The notes beneath the pieces were generated by a model. It did no database searches, was not told the origin of the DNA, and saw only the letters and a program-made list of their open reading frames with translations. Source: a virus. From it: 26,842 nucleotides of DNA. This document shows positions 1 to 25,989 of this stretch, piece after piece. The stretch is from IMG/VR virus record IMGVR_UViG_3300020457_001911, positions 1 to 26,842 of that record; one strand, given 5' to 3'. The translations under genes were made by a program, and so were the position numbers. Numbering within the stretch: the first letter of the stretch is position 1; every line of letters starts with the position of its first letter.

Positions 1-2084
1 TTCTTAGGTGCTTCTGTATATAAGGTATTATCATCAGAATCAACATACTGAGATTTAAGGATTGTTAAATCAGAAACTACTGTAGGATTTTTAGTTCCTG
101 TTGTTGTTGGTAAATTACCAATGGCAACTCCAGTAACAGTTGTAATTCCAGTTACAGTTATACTTGCATCACCAACTGCAGTAACTCTTACAAATGAAGA
201 CGTATTTGCTGCACCAACTCCACCAAAAGAAAGTATGTCACTAACTTTTACATTTGACGGGAATCTTCCATTTGGACTTGTAATGGTGCTTAATCCAGTT
301 GATCCATTAACAGATGTTATTGTGGCATCACCAATAACTTCACTAGATTTTTGAATAACATCAGCAGAAAAAGTTCTTGCAAAACCTACATTTCCTAAAT
401 CAGGACCACCATAAATTGACTTAACATCTTTTATTCCATATTGTGTTAAAGCAACGGAAACACGACCATCTTCAATGCCATTAAATTCAAATGGTTCATT
501 AACTAGAAAAGTACCTTGGGTATTATAAAGAACCATACCCTTACTATTACTAGTTGCACTTCTTACATAGCCTGTTGCTCCACTATATCTACCTTTTACA
601 TGAGTTGGAATGGTAAGAGTTGCTGCCTCATTTAAATTAATATCAGTAAATGGTTGAATATCATAAAGAGCAATATCCCATTGATTAGTATCAGAATTAG
701 ATGCTGAATATGATCCAGACTCTAATGCAAAATCATAAACTCGTGCAACACCAATTTCACTACCTGGTGCAGATATGATATTTGCAGCACTTTTTGCCCC
801 TTGTCTTTGATCCCTTAAACTTACAATATAAGTGTTACCTACTCCAATTTCTGGTGCCCCATTAACTCTATTAACTTCTAACGTTCCACCAGTGTTATAA
901 TTTATTGCTTGACTCGCTAAGAATTTTGCATTTCTTGGTTTAGGACAACTTAGTTGTGTTGTTGAAACTGTATTGATTTCATAACCTTTAACAAATGCCT
1001 TACCAGCAGATACCTGATATAGTCCAAGATTGTCGCTTGCTTGCTGTCCAGTCTCTGTGACATCTCCAGCCTGATAAAGACCATTATTACCTAAACCATT
1101 ATTGAGAGAATTTTTAAACGATATATTAAAAGGTTTAACGGTATAATCACCAGATTCTGCAAAAGTTCTACGAGCAAGTTCATCTGCAAATATATTATAA
1201 TCTGTAGATGAAGCGTTTTCTGTTTTTAATACGCCATTTTTAATACTACCTAATTCAACAAAATTATTATCATTTAAATCATCAAGAGGTTTTTTAAGTA
1301 AAGAACAAGAAATCTTTAAACGATCCGCACCTGGTGCAGCAAAATTGTTAAATCCTTTTGAATTATCATTTAAAGTTTCATCTTCATCAGAATTTATAAT
1401 TTCCTCTATAACTCTTAATCCAACCCTACACGAAGGTAAGTTATCATATTGAGATAATATTATTGTTTCTTTCTGTACATTAACAAATTGACCCCTAACA
1501 AAATATACACCATCAGCTATAGAAAACGCAGTTCCTGTTGATGTGGCATCTTCAGAAATACATGATGCAAAAGATTCACCTGCAGGAATAAAAGTATCGT
1601 TATCTGGACCAGAACTTATATCTGCATTGGAAGATAATAATTCTCCATCAATAAACGATTCTAAGTTACTATTTTGAACACCAGAGGAAATATATTGAAC
1701 GTATATTGTTAGACTATCTCTTTCAGAATCTTCTGCTTTTAAACATTTATCTATAATTGCAGAAACACCAGATGATTGTCCAACTATTTTTTTACCAACT
1801 AATTGCTCAAGATATGAAATAACAGGAATTCCTAAATGAGTTTCATTTATTTCAACTGCAAAATAATTTTTAGTATATAAAGTATTACCTGGAATTACTC
1901 TTGAACCCTCTTTAAAGAAATGCTGTCCAAATCTTTCTATTTGATTTTGTAAAATAGATTGTAGACCAGTTAATTCCCTTGCTTGAACAGGATAACCAGG
2001 CTTAAACAGTACTTTGTGATAATTCTGATTGTCAGAAAAATCATCAAAGTATGGTGATACGTTGAGATTAGTTGTTTGAGCCAT
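1..2084 (-). CDS. DUF4815-type virion structural protein, partial
   Basis: This frame is open from an ATG at 2084 to the left edge (694 complete codons), so the C-terminus lies outside the window. The N-terminus reads MAQTTNLNVSPYFDDFSDN, followed by YHKVLFKPGYPVQARELT and LQNQIERFGQHFFKEGS. This is the signature I associate with the DUF4815 family of T4-like cyanophage virion proteins, which is thought to be baseplate or tail associated. The rest is rich in Ser, Thr, Gly and Asn, as expected for a beta-rich structural protein, and I see no catalytic motif. It starts 6 nt after the gp8 stop with no promoter between them, so it should be co-transcribed with gp8. The family call is strong by motif. 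The exact place in the virion is inference. Confidence 0.85.
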   Translation of the reverse strand, partial: MAQTTNLNVSPYFDDFSDNQNYHKVLFKPGYPVQARELTGLQSILQNQIERFGQHFFKEGSRVIPGNTLYTKNYFAVEINETHLGIPVISYLEQLVGKKIVGQSSGVSAIIDKCLKAEDSERDSLTIYVQYISSGVQNSNLESFIDGELLSSNADISSGPDNDTFIPAGESFASCISEDATSTGTAFSIADGVYFVRGQFVNVQKETIILSQYDNLPSCRVGLRVIEEIINSDEDETLNDNSKGFNNFAAPGADRLKISCSLLKKPLDDLNDNNFVELGSIKNGVLKTENASSTDYNIFADELARRTFAESGDYTVKPFNISFKNSLNNGLGNNGLYQAGDVTETGQQASDNLGLYQVSAGKAFVKGYEINTVSTTQLSCPKPRNAKFLASQAINYNTGGTLEVNRVNGAPEIGVGNTYIVSLRDQRQGAKSAANIISAPGSEIGVARVYDFALESGSYSASNSDTNQWDIALYDIQPFTDINLNEAATLTIPTHVKGRYSGATGYVRSATSNSKGMVLYNTQGTFLVNEPFEFNGIEDGRVSVALTQYGIKDVKSIYGGPDLGNVGFARTFSADVIQKSSEVIGDATITSVNGSTGLSTITSPNGRFPSNVKVSDILSFGGVGAANTSSFVRVTAVGDASITVTGITTVTGVAIGNLPTTTGTKNPTVVSDLTILKSQYVDSDDNTLYTEAPK

Positions 2085-2090
2085 AGTTAA

Positions 2091-3641
2091 TTAAAACTGC
2101 AATATAACTTTGATATCCTCTTTTTGATTAGAAGATCTTGTGATAGCTGGTCTATTATCAATATAAATCATACTTCCAGAATATTTTTTAACCTCTGGAT
2201 TTGATAAACCATCTGTAAAGGATTGACCAAGGTAATATGTTCTATTATTTATTGAGGTCGAAAGACCACTGAAATCAGTGCTTATTGATAAATTAGTGCT
2301 TCCACCAACTACGGTTAAACTACCACCAGTGGTGATTTCTTTGGTAAATCTATTCAAATTATATCCATATTCAGTGACAGTTTGAGCAATTCCTGCAGTA
2401 GTAAATCCTGCAAGAGTTCTATCCTGCCAATATTTTAAAACACCAGTAGTTTCATCATAATTGATAACTCTACCAACAGCAGTAACACCAGCACCTATTG
2501 TCTGAGTGATAAGAGAATCACCTGTAAATGAAGCACCACTCCAACCAGCACCTGTTAAACGTAACGCATATGCTGCACTAGCTTTATCAAGATCTAACTT
2601 AGATGTACTTCCAAATTGTACTGGATTTTCAATAATACCTATTCTAGCAAATTGATTACCAGTAACAAAATCTGGATTTTCAACATCATTCTCAATTCTT
2701 GCATAAAGTAAAACATTGGTTGCACCCAATTCACGGTAAATGTCTTTTCCATGACCTCCTTGAGGTGGAATAATGACATCTAAAGAAGGAACAGTGGTGG
2801 GGATAGGAACTCCACCAGCAGTCAAATCAACATTACCAAACGTATAACCAGACCCTTGATTTGAGATGGTTACAGATTCAACTTTAGAATCATTATTAAT
2901 AACAACTGTGCATTCTGCTCCTGTACCATCTCCCTTGATTGGCACTCTAGTGTATGTTCTATTTGCAGTTCCTACACCAACACCACGATTTTTAATAACT
3001 ACAACTTTGATACCACCATCAACTGCATTATCTCTAATTGCTTCATGATCTGAGTTAGTTTCCCAATCTAATGGAACTGGTATAAATTCTGTAGAATCAA
3101 ATTTGGTTAGTTCTGATGGTTTAATTGTATAAAGATATTTCCATATATAACCATCACCACTTGTTCCAGCTGCTCTTGGTTCTAAATCAGTAAATGTTGG
3201 TTCATCTAATGATGGTTTGCCATTTGGAGTTTCAGGATTAGATCCATTTTGTAAACATATATATACTCTAAAATCAGTATTTACAACGTAATAATTTGCA
3301 CGATATAAACTTGTTCCTTGAGAATTTGGAGGTATATTGGTAATATCATAGTCTGGACGATAAAAATCGTAAGTGGTACCAGATGTCCAATCGTTTTTCT
3401 TTACCACCTGCATTACATCACTAGAAGATATCTTCTTTAGTGCTAAAATAGTATCCCAATTATTATTCACCTTATCAAAACTATCAATAGGTGCTGGTGG
3501 ATCATTATCCCAATCAGACTGAATACTTGTTGGGTTTGGAAGTCCTACAAATGCATAGTAAGAATTATCGGAAGTTGTAATTCCCGAAATAAAGTTTTTT
3601 GCATTTAGTATTCTGATCTGATCAGTTATAATTGCAGACAT
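2091..3641 (-). CDS. 8: Baseplate wedge protein gp8 (T4-like)
   Basis: This 516-aa protein resembles T4 gp8, a baseplate wedge subunit that packs with gp7 and gp10. Two blocks support this. Residues 162-170 read GDGYIWKYL, matching GDGYVWEYL as I recall it from T4 gp8. Residues 487-516 contain SGSMIYIDNRPAI and end in an acidic/aliphatic tail, matching the T4 C-terminus SGEMIYMENRPPI. T4 gp8 is about 334 aa, so this copy is some 180 aa longer. Much of the excess lies between these blocks. Part of it, at about residues 210-290, contains a GSGY-type module (SVTISNQGSGYTFGN) that also occurs in the neighbouring giant protein. A GATAAATA late-type promoter lies 17 nt upstream of the ATG. The order giant (gp7-like), fibre, gp8 matches the wedge gene order of T4-like phages. 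Confidence 0.9.
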   Translation of the reverse strand: MSAIITDQIRILNAKNFISGITTSDNSYYAFVGLPNPTSIQSDWDNDPPAPIDSFDKVNNNWDTILALKKISSSDVMQVVKKNDWTSGTTYDFYRPDYDITNIPPNSQGTSLYRANYYVVNTDFRVYICLQNGSNPETPNGKPSLDEPTFTDLEPRAAGTSGDGYIWKYLYTIKPSELTKFDSTEFIPVPLDWETNSDHEAIRDNAVDGGIKVVVIKNRGVGVGTANRTYTRVPIKGDGTGAECTVVINNDSKVESVTISNQGSGYTFGNVDLTAGGVPIPTTVPSLDVIIPPQGGHGKDIYRELGATNVLLYARIENDVENPDFVTGNQFARIGIIENPVQFGSTSKLDLDKASAAYALRLTGAGWSGASFTGDSLITQTIGAGVTAVGRVINYDETTGVLKYWQDRTLAGFTTAGIAQTVTEYGYNLNRFTKEITTGGSLTVVGGSTNLSISTDFSGLSTSINNRTYYLGQSFTDGLSNPEVKKYSGSMIYIDNRPAITRSSNQKEDIKVILQF

Positions 3642-3671: not shown

Positions 3672-5837
3672 TTAAATGGAAGGATAAATTACAATGCTTC
3701 CTAACATGCTACTATGATTAGTACATTGATATACTAATGTATTTGGTGCAGCAAAAGGAACTTCAAATTTAATGGTTCCACTTGATGCTGCATTATTAGT
3801 TACACCAGTATTATATGCAGATCCACCATCAGATACACGAATCTCGAATGGATGACTTCCACCAGAGTTATTAACAAACTCATAAGTTTGTCCTCTTGCA
3901 AGATAAATTGTTGGATCAGTTGCAGCACTCAATCCACCAGGCCCTGTGAAGGTGTAATGACTAGATCCAGAGGCACCTAGTGTCCATTGGGATGTTACAA
4001 AATTTCCATCTCCACCACCAACAAATGAGGAAGAATTAACGCTGGTTGCTGTTAACACTCCAACATTTACTCTCTCTGTCCCGACACCAATGGAGTCAGC
4101 AGCCACATTTGTTTTGCTTACTAACTCATACCATGCTGCAGCATGTGCGAAATATCCTTTTCCTATGTTATGAACATGAGCAAAGGCACCATGATATGTA
4201 GACGCAGATGGTAGATCAGAGAAATTGTTGAATAAGAATGGTATAACATTATCAGTTGCAATACCAGTGATTTTTCCACTTAGATTGACTACATTAAATC
4301 CAGATGTTCCTGTCGTACTAATACCAGCGACAGATGAAGCAGTAATACCAGTAAGTGCTGAACCATCAATAGCAGGTAAGGCACCAGATAATTTTGATGA
4401 AGTAAGCGTTGTTATTCTTGCATCAGCAACAGTTCCTGTTAATTGACCAGCAGGTATTGATGTTAATGATGCACCAGAACCACTGAATGTTGTGGCAGTT
4501 ACTATACCAGCGATAGACGCTGCAGCACCAACTATATTGGTTAATTCAACTGAAGGAGAACCACTTAATCCAGCAGCAGTGCCTGAAGTATCTTGATTTA
4601 AAGTAGCGACTCTTGCAGCAGCAACAGTTCCTGATGAAATATTAGATCCGTTAAGATTAGTTAAACTGGCACCAGAACCACTGAATGTTGTAGCAGTTAC
4701 TATGCCAGCAATAGAGGCTGCAGCACCAACTATGTTAGTTAATTCAACTGAAGGAGAACCAGTCAGACCAGCAGCAGTTCCAGATGTATTTTGGTTTAAT
4801 GTAGCAACTCTTGCAGCAGCAACAGTACCAGAACTAATATTACTTCCACTCAATGCGGTTATACTTGAACCATCACCATCAAATGAAGTAGCGGTAACAA
4901 TACCAGCAATAGAGGCTGCAGCACCAACTATATTAGTTAATTCAGCATCACCAACAAATGTAGATACTCCACTTACACGTAAATTAGTGAAACTAGATGT
5001 ACCAGATGTATTGATACCTGGAAGATTACTTAATCCAGAACCATCACCAAGGAATTTATTTGCAGTTACAACACCAACAATATTAACTCCATTACTAATG
5101 TGTAAATCACCTATTATCGTAGCTCCCGTACTAATAGTTTCAAATTTACGTTCATTATTATGGAATAATTTAACTGGGCCATCTGTATTAAACTCTGCCA
5201 TAGTTTCGGCAGCACCAGCTTTAGTAATCTTGACAGCACTTCCATTTGAGTCTAAGTATAGATTTCCTGTTGCTTGATCTTTAACCCAACTGTGGCTAGC
5301 ATCATGATATAAAGTTAGATCAGATCCAGCACCAAAAGCAATTTTTGCATTGTCTGCAAATTCTAAAGTATCTACGGATGCATCCCACATTGCCGTATAA
5401 TTATCACCACTAATATTAATATCTCCACCAGAAAATGTTGTTACACCAGATACATTTAAATTTAAAGTTGTAACTCCTTGTCCAACTTTAACATTAGCTA
5501 AGACACTAAGACCATTATTCTCAGCAGTTGTCGTTCCAATACCAACACTACTTAAAGTATGAATACCTGTTGAGTTTGTTGCAAATTTACCAGATCCTGC
5601 TACAGCACTAGATGATATTTCAATCGCTCCTGTTGGTCCACCAGAAAGAGATATATTTGTTCCTGCAGTTATAGATGTTACAATACCTGAGAGAAGAGTA
5701 GTTCCTGTATTTCCTGCACCAGTTAACAAACTATAAACTTCATCAAAATTTGCATTAATTTTTCCAGCACCAACTCTCAGACTATCGCCTGTTCCGTCAT
5801 CCGCAGAGGATCCTGTGTTTATGCCTAACTTTGCCAT
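3672..5837 (-). CDS. Tail-fibre/baseplate-attached protein with tandem repeats and C-terminal cupredoxin-like domain
   Basis: This 721-aa protein is probably a virion fibre or decoration. The N-terminus (LGINTGSSADDGTGDSLRVG followed by KINANFDEVYSLL) is the attachment-type start seen in many T4-like cyanophage fibre proteins. Residues 170-240 contain LTLYHDASHSWVKD and TGNLYLDSNG, common in marine phage fibre shafts. Residues 298-459 hold a 66-aa unit repeated two and a half times. Residues 620-721 look like a cupredoxin fold with H662, C705, H708 and M711 placed like type-1 copper ligands. The gene sits between the gp7-like giant and gp8, has its own CTAAATA promoter 22 nt upstream, and begins ATGGCAAAG. 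No enzyme motif is visible. Fibre or baseplate decoration is inferred from composition and position, and I cannot name a T4 equivalent. Confidence 0.7.
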   Translation of the reverse strand: MAKLGINTGSSADDGTGDSLRVGAGKINANFDEVYSLLTGAGNTGTTLLSGIVTSITAGTNISLSGGPTGAIEISSSAVAGSGKFATNSTGIHTLSSVGIGTTTAENNGLSVLANVKVGQGVTTLNLNVSGVTTFSGGDINISGDNYTAMWDASVDTLEFADNAKIAFGAGSDLTLYHDASHSWVKDQATGNLYLDSNGSAVKITKAGAAETMAEFNTDGPVKLFHNNERKFETISTGATIIGDLHISNGVNIVGVVTANKFLGDGSGLSNLPGINTSGTSSFTNLRVSGVSTFVGDAELTNIVGAAASIAGIVTATSFDGDGSSITALSGSNISSGTVAAARVATLNQNTSGTAAGLTGSPSVELTNIVGAAASIAGIVTATTFSGSGASLTNLNGSNISSGTVAAARVATLNQDTSGTAAGLSGSPSVELTNIVGAAASIAGIVTATTFSGSGASLTSIPAGQLTGTVADARITTLTSSKLSGALPAIDGSALTGITASSVAGISTTGTSGFNVVNLSGKITGIATDNVIPFLFNNFSDLPSASTYHGAFAHVHNIGKGYFAHAAAWYELVSKTNVAADSIGVGTERVNVGVLTATSVNSSSFVGGGDGNFVTSQWTLGASGSSHYTFTGPGGLSAATDPTIYLARGQTYEFVNNSGGSHPFEIRVSDGGSAYNTGVTNNAASSGTIKFEVPFAAPNTLVYQCTNHSSMLGSIVIYPSI
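3675..3980 (-). other. Cupredoxin-like domain with apparent type-1 copper ligands
   Basis: This encodes residues about 620-721 of the fibre-like protein. The segment contains IYLARGQTYEFVNNSGGSHP, then a strand-rich stretch, then LVYQCTNHSSMLGSIVI. H662 and the C-x2-H-x2-M cluster (C705, H708, M711) give the His/Cys/His/Met set of a type-1 copper site. The C-x2-H-x2-M spacing is the one I recall for amicyanin. The His-to-Cys distance is 43 residues, within the range of small cupredoxins. Whether copper is bound is unknown. The fold could be kept only as a stable beta-sandwich tip. Confidence 0.65.
4461..4946 (-). repeat. 198-bp tandem repeat (2.5 copies) in fibre gene
   Basis: Two full copies (4946-4749 and 4748-4551) and a partial third (4550-4461) encode the unit beginning (A/V)ELTNIVGAAASIAGIVTAT and containing NISSGTVAAARVATLNQ. 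The anchor sequence beginning aactat recurs at 4530, 4728 and 4926, exactly 198 nt apart. The copies differ mainly at synonymous or conservative positions, so the duplication is fairly recent or is kept homogeneous. It keeps the reading frame. Confidence 0.9.
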
Positions 5838-5874: not shown

Positions 5875-8800
5875 TTATGTAGAATAGTTTTTAAACTTCA
5901 TTTTTGGAGTTCTTATGACATTATCTCCTGTTGTAATACCAACTGCACCCTTGTCATTGAAAGACTCGAATGAATTTGTAGCAGATGCTCTATCAACAAG
6001 GACAATTTTACCCCAACTAAATTCACCAAAGAAATAATCAGGACCAATACGTCCAGTTGGTGTACTAAACGCAGAATAATTTGTCGCAATTCCACCAGCG
6101 AATGCTATTCCACCACCAGCATTATCAAAAGTATAATTTGTATCATCAAAGGTAATTGTAGAAACATCAAATTTAATTGTTCCAATTCCTGAAATGTTTG
6201 CATTTACCTGTCTAACGTGAGTAGTCACACCAGAGGGATATCCATGTCCAGTTATGAACGTTTCTACATCATGATAATCAGCAACTTGATAAACACAATC
6301 AATATTGTTACCAACATAATCACCATTTAGAATAAAGTGAGTTGTAAATCCAATTTGTGTTCCATCTCTTCTTGCAGTCGCAAACGTGGTTGATCCTATA
6401 CCAACAGTTGAATTCCTAACCACAAAGTAGTCACCCGTCTGAATGCCACTAAGTGCAGAATTTCCAAGGCCTGGATTTGTTATATCTCCGTCTCTAAGAG
6501 GAGATTCTGCAGGAATGAAGAATTGGAATACTGCTTGATTGTTTGCACCAGATGCAGTTGTTCCAAATCCAACAATAACACCCTGATCACCAAAGTAATT
6601 TGAAACAGTATTCTTTTCAATAACTGAAGGTGTTGTTGGTGGACTGATCAAAACAAGTGGTGGGTTTGCAGATGTATAACCAGTTCCTGTGGTATTGAAC
6701 TCTGATGTTCCACCGTAGGATACAGTTATCGTTGTAACTATGCCAGATGTTATAGAAGCAGTTGCAGTTGCTCTTAATGTAGTTCCCAATCCTACAGGAT
6801 TTTCTATTGTAACTTCAGGTGCAGTTAAGTAACCAGATCCACCATCAGATATTACAATAGAAATCACTTCAGAAGTATCATCATTAACGACAGCTGTCGC
6901 AGCAGCACCAGATCTATTAGTTTCTGATTTAAATGTTATTTCTTTTTGGAAATCTACACTAACTTCATTTTCATTCTTAGGGTTAAAGAATGGTCTTGCA
7001 TTATCAACATAAACAACAGTAGAACCAACACCAACAGGTTGAGTTAGATATGATGTTGGATGAATTATTGGTTCATATAATTCACGATCTTTAGCAACTC
7101 TCTTACCACTAATAAACTTATCTTCAGTCTGTCTACACCACACAACTGGACGTAACATTCTACTGTTGTCAGTTAAACCTGGCCCGTAGTATGGATAAGT
7201 ATCAACAGTGCTAGATGAAATTACTTCAGTAACTGTCCTAGCATCTTGTTGTAAGAATTTATCTTGAGGAATATCAAATGGATTTTGATTTAATCTGCGA
7301 TCTGATTCAATTGTAAGATCATCACCTTGTTTAACAGTATCAACAACATCAACATCCACAACGTCTACACCACCAGTTCCTTTATAGAAGAGGAATTTCA
7401 AACTATCACCTTCATAAGAACCATCTGTGGCAGATCCTTTAGGTGCCTCTTCAAATGTTATCTTACTTCCACCTTCAAAGAAATATGATTCACCTGGAAC
7501 TTGTAAAATATCATTAATAAAGATAAGAAGACAATCACGAACACTTACTAAAGATCCTGGTTTTGCTTGAATTGATAATGAATCACCATCCTTAGAAATT
7601 GGGAAAGTTTTTCTAATTCCATCAAATAGATTAGAAAAATCGTCAAGAACTTCTAATTGACCAAGAGACCATGCAGTGAATACATCATTGTCAATATTCT
7701 CTACAGTTAATTGGAATTCATCAGTGCTAATATCATAACCTGAGAATGTTGGTATTCCAGTTGTTCCTCCAGTTGGAACTGTTAATATATGACCCTCACC
7801 ATAACCATATCCAGTATTTGTAATTTCAAAATCTACAACACTAGATCCTTGACCAACAACAACAGAAACTCTTGCTTGTTGTCCACCTTGTGATGGTGAA
7901 GTGTCGCTATATTCTAAAAATAGATCTTCATAAGATAATGGATCATCAATAACAACCTTCGTTAATTTATCAACTCTACCACCTCTAGAATACCTATGAT
8001 TTCTCGTAGATATCCCAGTGTTAACTTCAAATGTTCTACTATTTAATACTTTAGTGATTGTTGTTCCATCAAATGCCACATCCTGCTTACTTGCAGAGTT
8101 ATTATTTGATCTAGGTGCGATAATTGTTGGTTGAGCAGTTCCTCCACTTACGTATTGAGTTGGAACAGTAGAAATACCAACATTAACAGTGAATTGAGTA
8201 TCACTAGCAACACCTACAACAGCAGCACCAACATAATTTGGATCACCTTCTCTCGGATATCTATGTTGAGTTGCATGACCATCTTTAGAACATGTAAATC
8301 TTAAAGACTCTTTTGCTATCTTAATACTTTTTTCAGTTGTTAATTCATGTGTTTGTCCAATGGTTAATTTGAGAAGCCCATCAGTCTCATCATATTGAGC
8401 GTCAGATACGTCAAAAAATACTAAAGGACTAGTTCCAACATTAACGGTTAATGTATTTGTTGTAGCAGCAGTAATAGTGGTATTAACACCAGCCACAGGA
8501 TCACTAGCACGAGGATATGGATGATCACTACCATAATTATCCATCTCACAAGTGAATACAATAGATCCAGTAGAAATTCCTATTGTATCATTAGTTCCCA
8601 ATCCATGTGCAGGAATTGTAAGAACTAAATCACCAGTAATAGCATCATATGTCGCATTTGTTGGTGTAAATTGTGTTCCAAAACCAGTGGCAACACCATC
8701 TTCCACAGCATATCTAAATGCGTGAGGATAAGCACCACCAGTAATAACTGCACTAGATGCAGCACCTACAAATGTGTGAGTATATTGATCTCCCTTCTTA

Positions 8801-11800
8801 CCTGCAGTTACATTTACTGTTATAGTTCCGTCGTTATATGTTAATCCATTAGTTGTTGCGGATTTAAAGGTGTGGATTCCTGTATTTGTAGAAGGAGTTG
8901 TTGGTAATGTTGTAATACCTAGAACATTAATTACAAATGTATTTGTGGTTACACTAGTAATTCCTAACCACTGACCATGAATAGGATCATGAGATCTTGG
9001 ATAGGGATGATCAGTTGTATGTAAATCCTTATCACATGTGAATACTAGAGAATTATCAGCAAGTTTAATCTTATCACCATTAGAGAATCCATGACTTGTA
9101 ATAGTGATTGTTGTGATACCAGTTGTTGCAGTATAATCAGCATTTTCTACTGTATATGCTTTACCATCACTAACAATTCCAACTGCAGTATCAAAAATAG
9201 AATCTCTATTTCTTGGATAGATGTGATTAACCGTTGCACCTAATCCACAAGTCATTGCAAGACCTGTTAACACAACATGACTTTGTTTTCCTGAAGTTGA
9301 TAATCCATGAGCAGCCAATGTTGTCACAGTCATAATACCAGTAGTATTGGTATAAACTGCACTTTGAATTCCTACAGCAGGTGCATAATTACAAGTAAAT
9401 CCAATACCAGATAATACAACCTCTTCACCTAATTTTAAATTATGATCAGTGGCAGTGGTAATTGTTGTTAGCCCTGTTATTGAACTATACCCAACATTTC
9501 TTATATCTCTTGGTTTATAGAATACTTGTGGATTAGTAATATTAATACTAGTAACAAAACCAGCAACGACAGTGGCAAGACCAATACTCGTAATACCAGC
9601 TGATCCAAGACTTTCTGTTTGTAATCCAACAGTAACAGTCTGAATACCAGATCTATATCCAGAACCGCTATTACCAATCGAAACCGTTGTAACAGTTCCT
9701 GCTAATGATACAATCGCAGTTCCTCCAGCAGATACAAGTGGTTGGTAATTAAATCCATGACTTGATGCAAGAGAAACAATAACTCCACCAACAGGAATGT
9801 TTGCAGTATTAACATCAGCAGCAGTGGAACTTGCAGCACCAGTAAATCTAATACTGGATATACCAGCACTTTCTTCTACTATTTCATAATTTGCATTTGC
9901 ACCTGGTTGTTGGAATACACCATTAATCATGATGACACCATTAATAGTTGTCATACCAGATACGTTGGTGTTATTCGCTGTTAACGAGAATGTTTTATCT
10001 TTTCCAGTGAATTGTTGAGAAATATCATCATAAAGATAATTATCAGTATACGTTTCTTCTGTTCCATTTATTACACCAGATCGAGTAAAGACTCTTCCTT
10101 GGAAACTTGAAGATGTAGTAATACCTTCCCAGTGTCTTTCATCGGGAGCTGCAGTAGAAGTAGAAAGTGGTTGCTTACCATGAGGTGGTTCAATAAAGTT
10201 TATTGTATTTTCAACAATGTTGTAGTTACCTCTAATCTTAGTTACTGTTGCTCCTGAACTATGTGCTGCTAAAGTAGTTCCTAACCAATTACGTCTTACT
10301 CTAAGAACATTGGTGCTTCCAATACCAACAGACATAATCTTCATTATTTCATCATCAATCTGCACATATTCACCACCAGATATAGATGTTATTCCACTAA
10401 AGGTAACAGTATCCTCTGTAACAAGAAGAGGTTTTGCTAAAGTTGTAGTAACCGAAGTTCCTGCAACTGGTGATTGAATTGCATTATCAAGAGCTACAAG
10501 AACTTTTGTATTTTGATTTTTTGCAGTAAAGAAATGTTGAGTTGTAATACCTACAGAAAGTATTTCAAAAGGAACAGGAATTCTTTTTAAAGCATCCTCT
10601 GCTGATTTTGCAAGTTTTATTGTATTTTCACTTATCTTGATAACAAAAACATCTGGAGGTAAAACATTAGTATTACCAATACCAGAAACATTTGTTGTTC
10701 CTATACCTATTGAATTGGTTCCAACTCCACTAGATGGTGCATATGAAATTTCTTGACCAGTCACAAAGAAATGATTTGGAACAACGATTGTGGAATCAGT
10801 TCCATCAACTTTAACTATAGAACTACTAGATCCATCAAACTCTCTCTTAAATATAGGATCTTCCTTATGAGTTAAATCAAATGCTCTCTTAATAGTATTT
10901 TCAGTTCCTTCATAGAAACCCTCTTGGCTGGTAATAGACCCTTGTTCAAGATCTAATACTGACTCTCCACCTACTGGTCTAGCAGCAGGGAATAATGATG
11001 TATTTTCATCAATTCGTAAGGCGTTCATAAAGGTTTTAACCTCTATATCAATACCTGAATTTGGAGTAAATGTTATCTCAGTAAGACTATTACCAACACC
11101 TGTTCTTCTAGCACCAATAGTTCCTAATCCACTAACAGGAGCATTTTTAGTAACAACACTACCATACTCTGTGAAAAATACTTCTTCAGGAAGACTTCCA
11201 TCAAAATCATCAGCTACGAGAACCTCTTTAAATTCGTAGGCATCATTAGTTAAATCTGATATTTGAACTAAACAATATGCAGCATCAAAATCATCAGCAT
11301 ATGTTGCTACACCAACTTGTTCAGGAACACCAGTTGCATCAATTCGTTTTTGTTCAACAAGAATTGAACCAAATGACATATCATAAGTTCCAACTCCAAC
11401 TGATGATTCTGAAGAAATACCAATTGTAAGTGTGCTAACTCTTGCAGTCGTAATTCCTGCATTAGGGAAATAATCTAATTTTAATACTGATCCATCTAAG
11501 TATGATCTATATGTTCCCAAATCACCTGCAGAAGAGAATGAATCTGTAACAGAGTGAATTGTTAATTGACCATATTGTAAAAGTTCTGTATCTTCACCAT
11601 CATGAATAATATTAAGTTCATCAAATTCTGCATCAGCTTCACTAGTTTCAACACTTACTAATATTTTTGCAGATCTACAATTATTTCTATCGGTTGCACC
11701 GATTCCTGCTATAGATACAACAGTTGCAGAACTTCCTCCTGCAATTAAAACATTAGAAGAAGCGACACTAACTAAAGACTCTGTAAATGATCCTGTTGAT

Positions 11801-14800
11801 ATACCAATAGTTGTTGAACCAACAGATGCAACAGTATTTGTTCCAATACCAATTCCATCAATATTAAATGCCCATGTCACTACATTATAATTGTTAAATT
11901 CAAATTTTGTAGGATAGAATTGTAAAACACCATCACTTCCATCAAGTCTATAATCAAAACTACCAAGATCAAGAACAGACTCAACTCTACCATACTGGTT
12001 AATCATTGAGAAACCACGACCAATATCATTGTAAACTGTAACCATCATCAATTGTCTTTCACCCGTGAAAGATCTATCTCTTACATAAGTAACAAACTTT
12101 TGAAGTCTACCATCAGCTGCTCTATGAGTATGAACATCTGCAAATCTTGTTGATCTTGCATTACTATTAAATTGATCACTAAAATCATCAATAGTAAGAA
12201 CTCTGTTGCTTAATGATTCTGAGAAATCAGTTAATGTTTGAGTGCTGAATGTTATTTCATTTGAAAATGGTTGATCAGAACCTTGTAAATGATTTTCACT
12301 AACTAAATCAAAATTATATTCACAGTTTAAATTTTCACGTCCAATCAATTGTAATTGATTAGTTACCTTTGATGTAGAACCAACACTAATGGGTTGACTA
12401 ATGGTTGATTCAATTTGAAGTTCACTAAATTTCTTAAATCCAGAGGTATGATTTATAGAACTTACAACATTCTCCCATTTTTCTACAGGAACTCTAGATT
12501 TTATTGAATATGAGAAATTCTGATAGTAATCATTATCATGAATTCTTTGATGTTCATTATTGAGGAAACCTGTTAGATATTCCCATCCATTTTCAACAAC
12601 TGAGAAATAATCTAATTCATATCTTGATTCAAAAGATTCTCTTTCGCTTATTAATCCTTTATCCCCAGTATCAGGAGAAACAAGGATTTTTCCAACTTCA
12701 AAATCACCAGAACTCTCTACAGTTAATAATTTTACATCTGGTAACCAATCACCAACAGTTCCTTCAGAAAATCCATCAGTTACACGATCTGAAGTTCTAA
12801 ATCTATTTGCTTGTAATTTTATATCAAATTGAGGGAACAATCCTTCAGGAACTAATGAGGCATCAGAAGTGGTGCTATCAAATCTTCCTGGAGTTTCTCC
12901 CACTCCAAGATGTCCACCTAGATTATAAGTTACAGTTCCAATACCACCAAGATTTGTAGCGATTCCTGTAAGTTTAAATCTAGTGTAACCATACGCTTTA
13001 GAATTAAATCCTTTAGCTGTTGATCCAATACCAACACTTGCGTTTTCTACTAAAACATTATCACCAAGTCTAAGTGGGAAAGTGTCCAGAGTGCTATAGG
13101 TATCTCTTAATGTTACTGAAACATCATCAGTGTCCGAATCATATACGATGTTTGAAACTCTAATACCATTTGGATTATCAACAGGTATTATTATTGGTGT
13201 TGTGTCTGATAAATCATTTGTATTTTTAAGAATATCAACATCTCTTCTATCAGGATGATATCTTATATCAATATCTTGAACTTGATTCTTAGTTCTTCCA
13301 TCAAGAACAACTAATCCTGGAGAACTATTATATCCTCTTCCAAAGGAAGTAACACCAATAGATTTAAATCCAGTTAAAGGTTCAATTTTTAATATTTGTG
13401 GGAATCTAACATCTGGTCTTAATGTCAAATCTGAAGGATAGTCAAATCCAATATTTTCTATTTTTGTTTTAAGTGCTTTACCTATTGTTCTAGTGGAAGC
13501 TTTTAATACAGCACCAGAACCAACATCTGATGTAACAGTTGAAATTCCTGGTAATTTAGTATATCCTCTTCCACCATCACTCAAATGGATTTTTGAAATC
13601 GCTCCATATGCAAAAGGAGATATTGTTTCATACGAAATCTTAGCACCATCCTCACTTGCAGTATAAGTAGATTCTTCAGGTACTCTACCAAGATCATAAC
13701 TGAATGTAGTTCCACCAGTAGAAATTATTTTAAATCTACCATTGTATCTACTATTTTCAAATACAATTTGATTATTATTATCAATCTCATCATCAACAAC
13801 AATCTCTTTATTTACAATAGGATTGTCACTTAAATTTAATGGAACTAAACGATAGTAAAGTAAATGTGGTGTAAAATCGTTAACAGTAACTGTTACTTTG
13901 GCATTGGCTGTAACTCCAATAGTTCCAGTTTGTTTTACTTCAAAATTTTCAAATTGATTATTAGTTTCGTATATTTCAGAGTAATTTGAATCTCTGTATA
14001 ATTCAAATTTAAATGCAGGATAACCTGTTGTATTCTGAACGTAACCCAAAGAAGAATCTGACAGATCAAATATTATAGATGATTTCTTATATACTGTAAT
14101 TGGTGGGTTAACTGGGAAAATTGTACCACCATCATTAGCACTAGATAATCCAACAAAAGTAGGGATACCTTTAGTTGTTTGAAATTTAGTCGTAGCTAAT
14201 TTAATAGTATTTTTATCAATAACATAAACAAAATATTGATCTTCATTTGTCAGACCAACGACAGGATTAGAAGACTGATAAACAATTTTCTGTCCAGTGT
14301 TTAATTTATGATCAGGAATATTAATTGAATCTGGTATTCCTGTAGTTGATGTTGTGGTTGTTATTCCTGAACCTTCAAAGGATAATCCATTAGTTAATAA
14401 TTTTCTGTTATGTTTATTATAAGTTACATTAATGGTTGTAGTTACTCCTGGATTTACATCAACAAATACAGTATCATTATTAGATAATCCATGAGTTGTA
14501 GCAGTAGAAACAGTTACTTTATTTTTAGATACTTTGCCAGTTAAAACATTTGGGTTATTAACTAATTTGAAACTATGATAGGTACCAGTTCCAATTCCTA
14601 CAAAGAACATTAAACCAGTATTTTTATTAGTTTCTGCTATTCCAATATATTCACCTAAAGTACCAATACCAACAGATGCAAGACCAACTCTTACCGTGGA
14701 CAAACCAATTAAATCTGGAGTTAATGCAGCAACAAATAATGGACTATGATTCGTAAGAGGATCATCACTAACACCAATAGTACCAGCCATATCAGTGTTA

Positions 14801-17800
14801 GTTGCAATTCCTATGGATGCACCACTATTAGTTTGATATGTAACTTCATCCCCAGTTTCTAATCTATGATTAGGAAGAAATATTGTTTGTGTTGGCACAA
14901 ATAGTTGTGTTACACCAACACCTGGATTAGAGAAACTTAGAGTTGTTCCTATACCAACCCCACGAGCAGTTCCTAATCCAATCGACTCTTTAGGATCAAA
15001 ATATATTTCCTTAGTAAATCTTTGTGATGATCTTCCTTTAAATCCAGCATCAACAGTAAATCTTCTCTCAAGATTTTCTATTCTAGTGGTTGCAGTGTGA
15101 CCAGCACCAATAGAACCAACTCCAACAGGTTTAGCAGCAGTTGCGTTGTATGCTCTTAAAACTCTTAATCTTGAACCAGCAAGATCAACATTAAGAACTT
15201 TAACTTGTTCTTGAGTTTGACCAGCACCTATCTGTAATATATCATTCTCCAATATAAATGGAGTTCTTAAATTACCATCTACTGGAATGTATGTAACTAT
15301 ACCAGAATTGTGTTTTTGTGCAGTGCCAATTCCTTGGGATAAACTTAAAACACTTGTAGAAATTCCAATCTTAAACGATCCATTTAATAAAGTATTTGTA
15401 GTGGTTAATCCAGAAATAATAACAGTAGAACCATTAATAAATCCATGTGGTCCAGTATGAATTCCAAGGAATCTATTCGTTAAAGGATAGAATTGAACAT
15501 CATTTAATTCAGTAATTTCAGTGTAAATTGAAGATACACCTGCACCAAGAACTCTAGTAACTTTAGCCCTTGCTGGATACGTATTATCAATTTCATCTTC
15601 AAAAACAATGTTATCATTTACTTTATAACCTAAACCCCCTGTAAGGATCCCTACAGCGTCTACAGACCCCTTCTGAACTGATTTGATTATAGAGTCCTGC
15701 TCAACGAAATCATTCGATTGTAGGACATAATCGTAACCACTATTTTTTTTATCAAGAGATAGTGGGAAAGTATTTCTAGAGAAATTTGTCTCATTTAAAT
15801 TTATATTATTTTGATCCGAATTAGTCCTATAATTAAATTCAATTGGTTTGGACTTAAATGAATCTCCTACTAGATATGGGAATTTTGGTCTCTTAAAATT
15901 CTTAAATACACCATCAGAAGTAGGAGTAGAATCAATAGTTGCAAAGTATGCATATGTTCCATTAGGAAATTCTGGTGTTACACAAAATCTTCCATTGTGA
16001 ATATCAAGAACACCCTCATCAGTAGAATTATTCCAAGTAAAGTCCTCAACAAAATATTCAGGAGGAAAAACACTAGTAGGAGGTCTGTTTTGTTTTAATT
16101 CAATTTTATATCCAGATCTGAGTTGTACAATTGATCCACCAGATTTTTCTGCATATCCATAAGGTCCATAAATGGGATTACCATCATAAGCCCAACCAAT
16201 TATTGGAGAGTGATATTGATTACTTGACTCTTCTCCATTTAAGAATACTAAGTCAGATTTACCAAATACAGTATTTCCCTCGCTATCAGTAGCATAAACA
16301 ACTTGTCTTAAACTTCTAGGTGCATATACATATGAACATTCTAATTCTTTATTATCATCAAGTGAAACATCTATAAAGACATCATCATCAGTAATATTTT
16401 TTTCATTTTTCTTAAAGTCATTTACTCTCCAAGTCTGTAGAACTGGTTTAAACTTAGCTCCCAATCCTGATGCAGTTACTCTTAAAGTAGTTGTAGAAAC
16501 TCCGTATCCAATACCTGCAGAATTAACTTTTATAGATGATAACCTACCATTTTCTAATATTGGAGTTAATTCTGCTCCTGTTCCAATACCACTAACCGAT
16601 ATCGCAGGTGGAGAATTATAATCAGTTCCAGCAGCTCCAACAAATACATCTACGATTGATCCTTCATGAATAACTGCAGATGCTTCACTTTCTCTTCCAG
16701 TATTAACATTTACATCACATGGTCTTTCAAAATTCAATATATCAGATGCACCATAACCAACACCATTATCACTTAGATGTACAGATGTTATTTCTCCCCT
16801 GACTATGGGTTGAACTATAGCATGAAAATCTTTACCCCCAAGAGAAGATACTCCAACATTACCAATAACTTCTACATTAATTGGTTTGTAATTAAAATTA
16901 TGTGTTCCAACACCAATTGAAGTTATATTTTCATATATTTTTTGATCAAAGTTAAATGTTTTTGTAGTTGTTCCAAGTCCTACAGCAGATAATTTAAAAT
17001 GATCAGAATCAACTACAGTAACATAATAATCTGTTGAAGTTGAAAGTCCTGTAACAGCAACAGATGCAGATCCTAGATCAGGAGAATATTGAATAATTTC
17101 TCCAGTTTTATAATCATGATTTTTTATATTAATAACATTTAAAGCCGTGTTTATACCTACAGGATCACATGTTCTTTGTTTGTTTTCATAACCAGATCCA
17201 GGATTTGTAATTACTATGGAATTTAGAACAAGTTTTCCACTAACCGATTCAAATGAGTGTGTCCCTGAACCATAGTCCGTGAAAAATACTGTGTTTATTC
17301 CTACTAAAGCATCACCCTCTTTTTTATGAAGTTTTATGGTATGTGGGTTTATTATACGAGCAAAATAAGAGTTTCCAGTGTCAAGTCCAACTAATGCCTT
17401 TCTACCAAAAGTATTATATTTAATTTTTTCAGCATCTCTAAATTTATGGAACGTTGTAAATCCAATACTCGACTCTGTTCCTATACCAGCAAGGTCAGGT
17501 ATGATGGAAGTGATACCTGTGGTGTTAACTGACAATTCGTGAGGAATAGTTAGTAACTTCGCCCTAGCTACAGCACCTTCACCATTTCCTCCAGTAATTT
17601 TTATAATTGGTTGTTCAATATAATCAAAACCAGTATCCACCAATCTAATTTCTTTAAATTCACCTTTAACTGCACAGAAACCTGTTGCACCTGCACCTAC
17701 ACCATCATTAATTATCAATTCTGGTGGATTTATGACATCATAATCACTTCCACCAGAAACAACTTCTATGGAGTTAACTTGACCATAATGAACAACATCT

Positions 17801-20167: not shown

Positions 20168-22099
20168 TTAACTTCTTACAAGAACTCCAGTGTTGTAACT
20201 AGGACTAACAATGTAATTTGATCCTGATGGGTCAAGTCCAGAACTAATTTCATCAACAATCATTTCAACGGTACTTCTATCTAGTTGTAAATAAAGATCT
20301 TGCAATCCAATTACATCATTTGATTCTGGAAAACCTGATATTTCTAAAATTTGTTGACCAGACTTTTCTTTTCCAGATACGATGTTAATTGGGTTTAATG
20401 TAATACGACCTTTTTTATAATCAATAACTCCGATACCCTTTCTTCTTACTATAGGTGTTGTTCCATCTTCTGAAGAGAGAGAAAACATATTAATTGTTCC
20501 AGTTTTTTTATCATTATTTGGTTTGTCAAATAAGTAAACTGTTTCATTTACATCAGCAACTTTAAAACCACATGTTCTAATGTTAAATCCATTCATCGAG
20601 GAAATATGAAATTCATTACCAAAATCAATCGCATATTCTGCAAATTGATTTAATGCCAATCTCAAATCCCTTCTCATTTGAACGGTAGTAATATTTGATG
20701 TTATAGCTTGATGACCTTGATCAATAATCTTCAGCATCTTACTATATTTGAATCTTGCACCATATCTATTTAGCTCACTAGATTGAGCGTACTTATTGAT
20801 ATTATTTTGAACAATTGTAGATACTGCTGCTGCGTTTGGTGCAAGTCCCGTGTTGTAATATACTTTACTATCAGTTTCTAAGAACAAATATTTAAGATCT
20901 AAAATTTCAGGTACAATTCCTGCAACTGCATATTTTTTAAGGTCTCTTTTAATGTTTTGTTTTACTGCATTTGATACAAAATCACCAGTTCTTGGTTTTA
21001 TACTGATAAAAACTTTTCCAAATTGTGGTGGAACTAATTCTTCACCACCAAACACTGAAATTGATTCTGTTTCTGGAAAAATTTTATTTGGTATCAATAT
21101 TTCATAATCATTTGCAGTCAATGCTCTATTTTGTGTTGCAAACATCTGAGGTGCAAACTTTCTAACAGAATCAACACTCTCAATTTCTTCACCACCAGAG
21201 GAAGGATCATCACTTGTCACTAAAGAAATACCACCAGTGATATTAAACACTTGACTTCCTAAAGTATATGTTAATCTACCACTAAAAGTAAAATCAGATA
21301 TACCATTTGCAGCTTGTGCATTAGTTGTAATGTATGTGGTTGTTATTTTATCATTACCTCGTATTTTTCTACCAAAAATACCATCACCAAAGATTACTTC
21401 ATATCTTTCATCTGCAATTTCTTGTAAAAAGTAAATATTTGAAGATCCATTTATAGTTCTTCCTGTTACAGGATTGAAAAGATCATCTTGTAGTGAATAT
21501 TTGATTTTTGTGGAGTCAGAGGTACCAACTCTAACTATTAAAGTATCAATATCAACACCTGGATTCTCTAAAATAAATTTTTGTTCTATATTTGTTGGAT
21601 CGACTTCATAATTTTGTTCAACAACGGTTCCTTCAAACACTTCTACTTCAAAAAACTCAGCAAAACCATCTTTAACGGCAACTGTCTTATCTTCAGTTAT
21701 AGAAAAGACAAATGATTGATCACCAAACTGATTTCCAGATGTTACAACAGGGCCTCTCCTTAAAGTAAGAGATGATGGAGTAACACCAACATTTCTACAG
21801 TCAACAACGAAACTTATTTTGGTTCTTGATGATTTTCTAGACCTTGGTAGGTATCCAATGTTCCTTGCAAGTGCTACAACGTTTTCTCTTAAAGTTGCAC
21901 TGTCAATAAAACATTCATTTGATACCATATTGGTATTATATGAATTAATATAAGTGTTATATGCTAATACATCAATAATTGTTGACAAATTAGACCCCTC
22001 GAAGTCATAATCCGTAAAATCAGAGTTAGATTTTAAATAATCTGTGATTGTGATCTTTATTTGATCAAAATCCAAATTAGCGAAGTTTAAAAGGGCCAT
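20168..22099 (-). CDS. 6: Baseplate wedge protein gp6 (T4-like)
   Basis: This 643-aa protein has the length and start of T4 gp6, the wedge protein that forms the inner baseplate ring around the hub and holds gp7 and gp25 (Baseplate_J-related fold). The N-terminus contains NFANLDFDQIKITITDYLKS and LSTIIDVLAYNTYINSYNTN, the conserved gp6 opening. The segment FAPQMFATQNRALTANDYEI in the middle is the conserved hinge seen in gp6/gpJ proteins. The gene begins directly after the gp25 stop with no gap (ATG at 22099) and ends one base before the giant gene, so gp25, gp6 and the gp7-like giant form one translation unit, as the assembly order of the wedge would suggest. Nothing looks truncated. Confidence 0.93.
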   Translation of the reverse strand: MALLNFANLDFDQIKITITDYLKSNSDFTDYDFEGSNLSTIIDVLAYNTYINSYNTNMVSNECFIDSATLRENVVALARNIGYLPRSRKSSRTKISFVVDCRNVGVTPSSLTLRRGPVVTSGNQFGDQSFVFSITEDKTVAVKDGFAEFFEVEVFEGTVVEQNYEVDPTNIEQKFILENPGVDIDTLIVRVGTSDSTKIKYSLQDDLFNPVTGRTINGSSNIYFLQEIADERYEVIFGDGIFGRKIRGNDKITTTYITTNAQAANGISDFTFSGRLTYTLGSQVFNITGGISLVTSDDPSSGGEEIESVDSVRKFAPQMFATQNRALTANDYEILIPNKIFPETESISVFGGEELVPPQFGKVFISIKPRTGDFVSNAVKQNIKRDLKKYAVAGIVPEILDLKYLFLETDSKVYYNTGLAPNAAAVSTIVQNNINKYAQSSELNRYGARFKYSKMLKIIDQGHQAITSNITTVQMRRDLRLALNQFAEYAIDFGNEFHISSMNGFNIRTCGFKVADVNETVYLFDKPNNDKKTGTINMFSLSSEDGTTPIVRRKGIGVIDYKKGRITLNPINIVSGKEKSGQQILEISGFPESNDVIGLQDLYLQLDRSTVEMIVDEISSGLDPSGSNYIVSPSYNTGVLVRS

Positions 22100-22501
22100 T
22101 TATCGTGTCGGTAACAAGACGAATTCTAATTGCTGTGGTGGAACGTCAATTCCAACTATTTTATAATTAATTCTCACGTTAAATTCATTATTATCAAAAT
22201 CTGGTTCAACATCCACCTCTTCCAACTCTACTCTTGGTTCATAATTTCTTATTGAGGTTTCAATTTCATCTTTTATGTCGATTGCGACAATATCATCAAC
22301 AAGTTCAAATAATATTTTTGAAAGATTTGAACCAAAGTCAGGATTAAAGGGTTTTTCGCCAGGAGACGTAAAAACTATGTTTCTAATAGAGCGAGCTATG
22401 GCAGATTCATTTTTTAACAGAATTAAATCGTCATTTAAAGGATTAACTTTAAACGACATGCTTAAATCTTTAAAACCTTTACTAACTCTCTCTACAGGCA
22501 C
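22100..22501 (-). CDS. 25: Baseplate wedge protein gp25 (gpW/gp25 family)
   Basis: This 133-aa protein belongs to the gp25 family, a small wedge subunit that, with gp6 and gp7, joins the baseplate to the tail sheath; TssE of type VI secretion is related. Diagnostic segments are SIRNIVFTSPGEKPFNPDFG followed by SNLSKILFE, and the EPR triplet in IRNYEPRVELEEV. The start is a GTG at 22501 giving MPVERVSKGFKDLSMSFKVN, which keeps the conserved N-terminus of cyanophage gp25. The only early ATG would remove 14 residues of it. An AATAAATA late-type promoter lies 21 nt upstream. It is the first gene of the structural block. Confidence 0.93.
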   Translation of the reverse strand: MPVERVSKGFKDLSMSFKVNPLNDDLILLKNESAIARSIRNIVFTSPGEKPFNPDFGSNLSKILFELVDDIVAIDIKDEIETSIRNYEPRVELEEVDVEPDFDNNEFNVRINYKIVGIDVPPQQLEFVLLPTR

Positions 22502-24952: not shown

Positions 24953-25189
24953 TCAATAAGAATCTTCCTCCCATGATGGTGTTGAAACAATTCTTCCTGG
25001 CCCACCTACACCACATTTTGGCCCTAATTTAATATATGATAAATCTTCTTCTGTATATTCTGTTGATATTAAATCTATCATTACATTTAGCATCTGCCAC
25101 TTCTCTTCAAAATCATCTTCATTCAAATTCCAATACACACAATTGTCTTTTAAGTAAATATGATATGTTGTATTACTATATTCAGTCAT
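24953..25189 (-). CDS. 78-aa hypothetical protein coupled to the desaturase
   Basis: The protein begins MTEYSNTTYHIYLKDNCVYW and continues LNEDDFEEKWQMLNVMIDLI. It is small, acidic and soluble, with an alternating strand-then-helix pattern and a Gly-rich tail (KCGVGGPGRIV). I recall similar short proteins beginning in this way in other cyanophages but no function. Its ATG overlaps the desaturase stop (ATGA), so it should be made from the same transcript. Whether it acts with the desaturase is unknown; shared transcription is the only link. Confidence 0.78.
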   Translation of the reverse strand: MTEYSNTTYHIYLKDNCVYWNLNEDDFEEKWQMLNVMIDLISTEYTEEDLSYIKLGPKCGVGGPGRIVSTPSWEEDSY

Positions 25190-25989
25190 AAAACCTCATT
25201 ATTTGTATTATTTATTTTGGGTACTCTAACATTAGTTGCTAATCTTAAAGCACGTAATACTACTATAATATACCATGTCAAATCAAACTGTCCTTGTAAA
25301 CCATGTTTTGCAGATGTAGGATATGCATGGTGATTATTATGCCATCCTTCTCCAAATGCTAACCAACCCATGATACGATTATTTCGACTATTATCATTAC
25401 TTTCAAAAGGTTGAGTACCCCATGTATGAACAACTGAGTTAATACACCATGTTAAATGATATACCACTACCATTCTGAGAGGTATACCCCATAGTACCCA
25501 GTGCCATCCACCAAGATAAAACAAAACAATACCAAGGGGGATTTGTAGTAATAAAAAATACTTGTCTAACCATCTATAATAAGGATCCTTTCTTAAGTCT
25601 GCTGTATATCTTCTAACTCTCTTCTCACCAGGTACATGATATAACATCCATCCTATATGAGCCCACCAGAAACCACGATTGATATTATGTGGGTCTAACT
25701 CTTGATCTGAAAACTTATGATGCTGGCGATGTAATCCTACCCACTGTATTGGACCATACTCTGCACTTAAGGCACCAAAGGTCGCAAAGACTCTCTCTAA
25801 CCACTGAGGTACACTGAAACTCCTATGAGAAAGTAGACGATGATATCCTAATGTCAACCCAAGGCACCCCGTTACCCATCCCAAAAAGATAAGCATTAAA
25901 AAAGCACTCCAACTAAACTGCTGAAGTGCAACAATACCTAATACATGAATAAGGAAAAAGAAACTAATTGTAGGCCATTCTAATTTCAT
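25186..25989 (-). CDS. desC: Acyl-lipid delta-9-type fatty acid desaturase (DesC-like)
   Basis: This 267-aa membrane enzyme has the three histidine boxes of the acyl-lipid desaturase family: H50-x4-H55 (HRLLSH), H87-x2-HH91 (HRQHH) and H217-x2-HH221 (HNNHH). These hold the di-iron centre. Surrounding sequence is typical of cyanobacterial DesC: LGLTLGYHRLLSHRSFSVP, GPIQWVGLHRQHHKFSDQ and DPHNINRGFWWAHIGWM. Hydrophobic segments lie near 8-48 and 143-186. The enzyme inserts a double bond at about C9 of fatty acids bound to membrane lipids, using O2 and electrons from ferredoxin. Cyanophage lipid desaturases are known auxiliary metabolic genes, so presence here is expected. A sigma-70-like promoter about 220 nt upstream suggests host RNA polymerase reads it early. 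I see no clear Shine-Dalgarno before the ATG. Confidence 0.93.
   Translation of the reverse strand: MKLEWPTISFFFLIHVLGIVALQQFSWSAFLMLIFLGWVTGCLGLTLGYHRLLSHRSFSVPQWLERVFATFGALSAEYGPIQWVGLHRQHHKFSDQELDPHNINRGFWWAHIGWMLYHVPGEKRVRRYTADLRKDPYYRWLDKYFLLLQIPLGIVLFYLGGWHWVLWGIPLRMVVVYHLTWCINSVVHTWGTQPFESNDNSRNNRIMGWLAFGEGWHNNHHAYPTSAKHGLQGQFDLTWYIIVVLRALRLATNVRVPKINNTNNEVL

Follow-up and report, generated by a model that had tools for sequence, protein, structure and literature searches.

This locus raises the question of whether a phage tail protein can end in a copper-binding domain of the blue-copper (cupredoxin) type and, if so, what such a domain would do on a virus particle. The DNA analysed here (the window, 26,842 bases) is the IMG/VR record IMGVR_UViG_3300020457_001911, which is an uncultivated cyanophage-like T4-type myovirus. 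Based on fold prediction, on the conservation of four candidate metal ligands and on the way in which these ligands are lost, we consider, with a probability of about 0.65, that the C-terminal ~105 residues of a 721-residue protein form a genuine cupredoxin whose type-1 (blue) copper site is intact, displayed on the virion as an exchangeable binding module.

Gene context of the 721-residue protein

The genes surrounding the protein of interest all lie on the minus strand, in the order gp25, gp6, gp7-like, 721-aa protein, gp8 and DUF4815/phrog_358 protein:

3-2084, minus strand: DUF4815/phrog_358 protein
2091-3641, minus strand: gp8
3672-5837, minus strand: gene of the predicted virion protein, 721 aa (open reading frame; PHROG 677, 4e-43; phrog_958, 4e-7; gene slot of phage RB11-B)
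5460-5822, minus strand: T4 gp9/gp10-like N-terminal region of that protein, residues 6-126, predicted to serve baseplate attachment (PF07880)
5875-20166, minus strand: gp7-like baseplate wedge protein, 4763 aa (phrog_2885)
20168-22099, minus strand: gp6
22100-22501, minus strand: gp25

The N-terminus of the 721-aa protein matches PF07880 with E=5e-5, its 23.8 bits falling narrowly short of the gathering score (25), and its C-terminus falls under PHROG 677, named "baseplate wedge tail fiber protein connector". With this N-terminal homology and its place in the gp25-gp6-gp7-gp8 cluster, the protein belongs with the T4 gp9/gp10-like connectors. The initial annotation had called it a phage fibre protein; a baseplate-wedge/tail-fibre connector fits better than a proven fibre tip. 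By annotation and homology it is a predicted virion protein, and virion proteomes have been published (PMC3037559).

The same gene order is found in Synechococcus phage RB11-B, where a 548-aa protein takes the slot flanked by gp8 and the giant gp7-like gene. In phage syn9 the corresponding slot is occupied by gp102 (406 aa, annotated as T4 gp10-like), the C-terminal end of which is the same cupredoxin-like domain, and in S-SM2, the nearest phage by gp6 (62% identity), gp8 follows directly after gp7. Two further observations concern the window itself: the 4763-aa gp7-like protein is far bigger than T4 gp7, and a fatty acid desaturase gene (PF00487, 7e-24; 25186-25989, minus strand), possibly an auxiliary metabolic gene, lies among the phage structural genes.

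The predicted fold and the candidate copper ligands

The features of the C-terminal domain, as predicted, are the following:

3675-4016, minus strand: cupredoxin domain, residues 608-721 (AlphaFold2, Foldseek, PF00127, plastocyanin sequence matches)
3852-3854, minus strand: H662, predicted copper ligand 1, in an S/G-H-P-F motif (conserved in 75/75 homologues; aligns with the ligand His of 1b3i)
3723-3725, minus strand: C705, predicted copper thiolate ligand (conserved in 75/75; sole Cys of the protein)
3714-3716, minus strand: H708, predicted copper ligand 3 (conserved in 75/75; lost with Cys in 11/11 ligand-deficient representatives)
3705-3707, minus strand: M711, predicted axial copper ligand (conserved in 75/75; C-x2-H-x2-M as in amicyanin)

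Modelled with AlphaFold2 from 47 homologues, residues 608-721 gave a mean pLDDT of 93.9 and a pTM of 0.86, with nine strands and zero helices. When the model was compared with the PDB using Foldseek, all of the best 50 matches were copper proteins (50/50), including rusticyanin (top by E-value, 5e-6), three-domain nitrite reductase, plastocyanins and amicyanins, as well as purple cupredoxin, auracyanin, AcoP and laccase. The TM-scores of these matches are moderate (0.42-0.60, by query length), which points to a distant member of the cupredoxins, and the predicted model, by its nine strands and its Foldseek matches, has the eight- to nine-stranded Greek-key beta-sandwich of that fold. A cupredoxin domain at the protein's end, as initially proposed, is therefore borne out by a predicted fold that matches copper proteins only (in the best 50) and by a conserved ligand set. 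The range first given for it, 3675-3980, was right in location and too short in extent, the domain covering about residues 614-718 (3684-3998).

At the level of sequence, the best PDB matches are plastocyanins (1bxu, E=0.006; 1b3i, E=0.007), and in the alignment with 1b3i (Prochlorothrix plastocyanin) the four candidate ligands fall on its four copper ligands. The PF00127 (Copper-bind) model gives E=0.005, with 17.6 bits for the domain alone and 13.7 for the full protein, below its gathering score of 21.2, and it matches 29 of 47 relatives at E<=0.1. PF25489 matches 15 of the 47 phage domains (best E 4e-5) and also the bacterial relatives. The curated subfamily models score far under their cut-offs (plastocyanin TIGR02656, 15.9 bits against 87.85; halocyanin TIGR03102, 20.3 against 93.8), and strict membership in the amicyanins or plastocyanins was rejected on such cut-offs.

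The complete His/Cys/His/Met set named at the outset (H662, C705, H708 and M711) is found at exactly these positions in the ORF translation, and the C-x2-H-x2-M spacing does equal that of amicyanin, CTNHSSM here being matched by CTPHPFM at residues 92-98 of 4p5r. In the numbering of the 114-aa fragment that was modelled, the ligands are H55, C98, H101 and M104, with model strands at 93-98 and 105-111; the Cys is thus the last residue of the penultimate strand, with the second His and the Met in the loop that leads to the last strand, and the first His is just ahead of an earlier strand, so that the cupredoxin arrangement His...Cys-x2-His-x2..4-Met is present with its usual strand and loop placement. 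Together with the Foldseek matches, this placement speaks indirectly against the second refuting condition of the initial annotation, a lack of clustering of the four residues in the predicted structure. In plastocyanin and amicyanin the first ligand His is followed immediately by Asn; here, the residue after H662 is Pro663, invariant in 75/75 homologues. M711 is among just four Met in 721 residues. Exactly one Cys is found in 255 of 279 homologous domains, with 0.26 Cys per 100 aa outside the domain in these proteins, and since there is one Cys per domain (the only one in 721 aa here), a disulfide is not the reason for the conservation of C705.

Just upstream of the cupredoxin domain, the same protein contains an H-x-H motif (FAHVHNIGKGYFAHAAAWYEL; residues 554-556, window 4170-4178, minus strand). 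HxH is the motif proposed as iron-binding in phage tail fibres (PMC11705849), and, judging from sequence, the 721-aa protein may bear two kinds of metal site (HxH and cupredoxin).

Conservation, spread and concerted loss of the ligand set

The alignment of homologues that the initial annotation had suggested as a check came out in favour of the site: all four residues are identical in 75/75 first-round homologues (about 55-95% identity), and they make up 4 of the 15 invariant columns of this alignment. One query pattern of this first scan contained the Cys-His-Met motif, and the scan was therefore redone with query pieces free of all four ligands, namely the segment that precedes the first His and, from three subfamilies, the region linking His and Cys. 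All four ligands were intact in 155 of the 164 distinct domains retrieved in this way, and conservation as an artefact of the motif-bearing pattern is thus ruled out, the result being unchanged with ligand-free queries. In the pooled set, 270 of 283 distinct domains (95%) have the four ligands, and among cellular domains all 22 do. These frequencies come from a pattern-based sample in which the best matches were kept, and carry the bias of that choice; the domains were extracted with a profile that includes the ligand columns, which adds a slight bias against ligand-free members.

The domain is widespread in marine phages. In INPHARED, 360 records match, nearly all from phages of Synechococcus and Prochlorococcus, the others including a pelagiphage and marine single-cell viruses, and a single scan of IMG/VR contigs gave more than 500 matching stretches. 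None of the matches listed (about 120 INPHARED rows) has a copper-binding annotation, the labels being tail fibre, connector, protease or hypothetical. The position of the domain varies (C-terminal, internal or N-terminal), as do its carriers, which include connectors (syn9), spikes (P-SSM2, N-terminal), podovirus proteins (P-SCSP2) and, by fold match, S8/S53 peptidases of ACG-2014e and ACG-2014h (BFVD A0A0E3F583, V5URI3). Four matches were found in P-SSM2 and five in P-HM1, some of them distant or partial, and some ligand-free members are located in proteins that also bear an intact copy. No detectable copy was found in the genomes of S-PM2 and S-SM2, from which it follows that the domain is dispensable for this phage group.

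Several side observations belong here. In P-SSM2, a PF00082 protease gene adjoins the domain-bearing spike gene (PSSM2_297/298); a protease plus a copper domain on virions would be odd. A distant branch in large phage structural proteins of P-HM1 and P-SSM2 (L466, L469, L471, L472) keeps His...Cys-x2-His-x2-Met, with motifs such as HPFRFSE...YYCTMHSRM and THAIYFSE...YVCQNHLAM. Giant-virus "Beta-sandwich proteins" (Marseillevirus, Pithovirus; BFVD A0A481YY19, A0A481YWX9, A0A481Z7Q7) are strong fold matches to the domain. An origin from host plastocyanin or phage petE is unsupported, since 193 of 201 Prochlorococcaceae genomes have no match and the 8 matches are divergent.

In cellular genomes, 21 loci were found, including ones on large contigs of Flavobacteriaceae, Marivirga and Paraliomyxa. 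The bacterial relatives are secreted proteins, the flavobacterial ones being fused to Lipoprotein_15 secreted repeats. In one flavobacterial locus (L089), the gene immediately preceding that of the cupredoxin encodes an HMA heavy-metal domain, which contains the motif CASC and scores slightly under its cut-off (E=3.5e-4), and the pair lies within a block of YceI and DUF5777 genes. An HMA gene adjoins the cupredoxin gene in five flavobacterial genomes, with the larger block in four of these; among the other cellular contigs, some may be mis-binned phage DNA. The block (L089:2854-8267 and matching parts of L088, L091, L094 and L095, that of L091 in part) has the order YceI, tRNA_anti-like, DUF5777, HMA, Lipoprotein_15+cupredoxin, tRNA_anti-like, YceI, DUF5777, and resembles a redox or metal system of the envelope that is as yet uncharacterised.

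The members that have lost ligands are informative about the site. Reduction at 70% identity left 100 representatives, 88 of them intact, 11 with losses and 1 clipped by the alignment. In all 11 loss representatives both Cys and the second His are gone, in 9 of them the first His is gone as well, and 6 keep the Met, probably because Met or another hydrophobic residue suits the core. Loss of a single ligand was seen in none of the 99 complete representatives, and the first His, although 43 residues away from the Cys, is nearly always lost together with it (table of Cys by first His, 9/2/0/88; p=3e-11 by Fisher's test). When the columns were shuffled, the observed number of multiple losses was equalled once per 20,000. 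Kinship inflates both figures, and a tree was therefore built from 102 columns; poorly resolved, it gives 8 changes and 5 phylogenetically independent pairs on well-supported branches. The first His tracks the Cys in 4.6 of these 5 pairs with 0 discordant, the pairs being too few for significance alone. The branches of three of the 11 loss members (L062, L188, L458) are very long and their alignment is uncertain; when these are set aside, Cys and the second His are missing from 8/8 and the first His from 7/8. Additionally, the second copy in RB11-B (outside the count of 11) has F, A, V and M at the four positions, its first copy being intact.

While the ligands go, the fold appears to stay. 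In the loss set, P642, G649, Y652, F654, P663, I666, P698 and Y703 are retained at 91-100%, and the model of one ligand-free member has a pLDDT of 96.9 and still matches cupredoxins, which indicates that the ligands are not required to specify the fold. All-or-none loss combined with retained fold residues marks a metal site as being under selection, and the pattern is that of ligands kept or dropped as a unit, as would be expected of a functional metal site at times abandoned. We regard it as very probable that the metal site of H662, C705, H708 and M711 is real.

Possible functions and relation to known systems

A cupredoxin fold, a full ligand set and recurrence in marine phages, taken together, suggest that virus particles may carry copper. 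In the mechanism that we propose, the gp9/gp10-like connector would display the predicted copper domain at the periphery of the baseplate and, if its copy number follows the six trimers of T4, each particle would have about 18 sites. Because the protein is made in the cytoplasm, copper loading would come after lysis: the domain would be assembled apo within the host and acquire copper once released, or at the surface of the cell. The metal would then fix the ligand loops in the shape that docks on a partner, which could be a component of the host surface or a neighbouring tail protein. Given a metal, we lean towards docking over a redox function, since the shuffling of the domain among fibres, spikes, connectors and proteases favours binding over a dedicated electron path.

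The type-1 sites of known cupredoxins are mostly electron carriers, which makes a redox use the main functional rival, one that we consider possible and rather unlikely: the domain could exchange electrons with a redox protein of the host surface, or sense redox state and so gate baseplate firing. The resemblance to PF25489, named for the plant protein At5g54830 (a CYBDOM redox protein), and the YceI-family genes that neighbour the bacterial relatives are in its favour. A redox device might also underlie light-dependent cyanophage adsorption. P-HM1, which has several divergent copies, is a relative of P-HM2, a phage unable to adsorb in the dark (PMC7112961). The case of S-PM2 speaks against this reading. 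This phage is a light-dependent adsorber and has no detectable copy, so that the domain is not necessary for such adsorption and is at best not its general explanation.

If the site binds a metal, its identity has to be considered. That the physiological metal is zinc or another ion, acting as a purely structural clamp, is in our view unlikely. Sequence cannot tell metal identity, and cupredoxin sites also take Zn, Hg and Co; against this, the complete Cys/2His/Met set is typical of blue copper, and the bacterial relatives adjoin an HMA-domain gene, though HMA domains handle other metals too. We take copper in particular to be the probable metal of the predicted site.

A docking domain holding copper could also work as a Trojan horse, tail copper being offered to a copper-uptake or copper-binding receptor of the host, as has been proposed for iron in the Ferrojan Horse. 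There is a precedent for tail-bound iron in HxH sites (PMC11705849), metals are scarce in the sea and the domain would be exposed on the tail; the presence of the domain inside proteins and on proteases runs counter to the idea, which we judge quite improbable.

Equally little weight can be given to a non-metal reason for the four residues, such as a buried hydrogen-bond or packing cluster at the loop end. The adjacent Pro, Tyr and Gly are indeed conserved equally, but the residue types and the amicyanin spacing are exact, copper proteins are all of the best matches of the fold that holds them, and residues 43 positions apart are co-lost while packing residues remain. Least probable by far is a recycled beta-sandwich, purely structural or adhesive and with the H/C/H/M set as a functionless relic: ligand-free members do persist in phages, are predicted to keep the fold and in some cases share a protein with an intact copy, but a relic would decay residue by residue, whereas this set is 95% intact and lost only in concert, and the vestigial-site idea was rejected on the all-or-none loss seen among homologues retrieved with ligand-free queries.

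A copper site of this kind would have several consequences. If virions hold copper, they would make up a share of the sea's organically bound copper that has so far gone uncounted, and the adsorption of phages could hinge on copper supply, chelation or redox state. A metalloprotein-based, redox-active step of phage entry would, if true, have no described parallel that we found. The wider proposal, that blue-copper proteins are at work on many marine phage tails and that copper or redox chemistry takes part in host recognition or in the triggering of infection, is tentative. Cultured phages with the domain (syn9, P-SSM2, P-HM1) and without a detected copy (S-PM2, S-SM2) both exist, and the natural ligand-free variants are built-in negative controls.

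What would be new here is a divergent cupredoxin branch deployed on virions, cupredoxins and the iron-based Ferrojan Horse being already known; in the largely open-access literature searched, we found no paper that connects cupredoxins to tail or virion proteins of phages. With T4 gp9/gp10 and PHROG 677, the phage protein shares its N-terminus, the gene order and the PHROG 677 name, and T4 gp9 and gp10 are not known to have a cupredoxin domain. PF25489 (At5g54830-like) probably forms one broad family with the phage domain, although it was described from a plant membrane protein and the matches scored individually fall below its 27-bit cut-off. Rusticyanin (1gy2, 1rcy), the top fold match, is larger, has a longer ligand loop and shows ~20% identity in the fold alignment. 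Plastocyanin (1bxu, 1b3i; PF00127) is the best PDB sequence match, and all four ligands align with those of 1b3i, but the loop of the phage domain is two residues shorter and its scores are under the curated cut-offs; the cyanophage auxiliary gene petE is a separate small gene (PMC2984593) and not this domain. With amicyanin (4p5r, 1aac), also a fold match, the domain shares a C-T-x-H-x-x-M loop of identical spacing, and positions 54-82 of the NCBIfam amicyanin model align with residues 82-110 of the 114-aa fragment, the two stretches having equal lengths. Nevertheless, the TIGR02657 score is 16.1 bits against a cut-off of 110.2, the phage His is followed by Pro, and amicyanin is a free periplasmic carrier, whereas the phage domain is part of a predicted virion protein. 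Finally, in the case of the Ferrojan Horse (PMC11705849), too, an exposed tail protein of marine phages bears metal ligands in its HxH sites, but these are iron and trimeric His sites, where the present protein has a predicted blue-copper site within a single chain.
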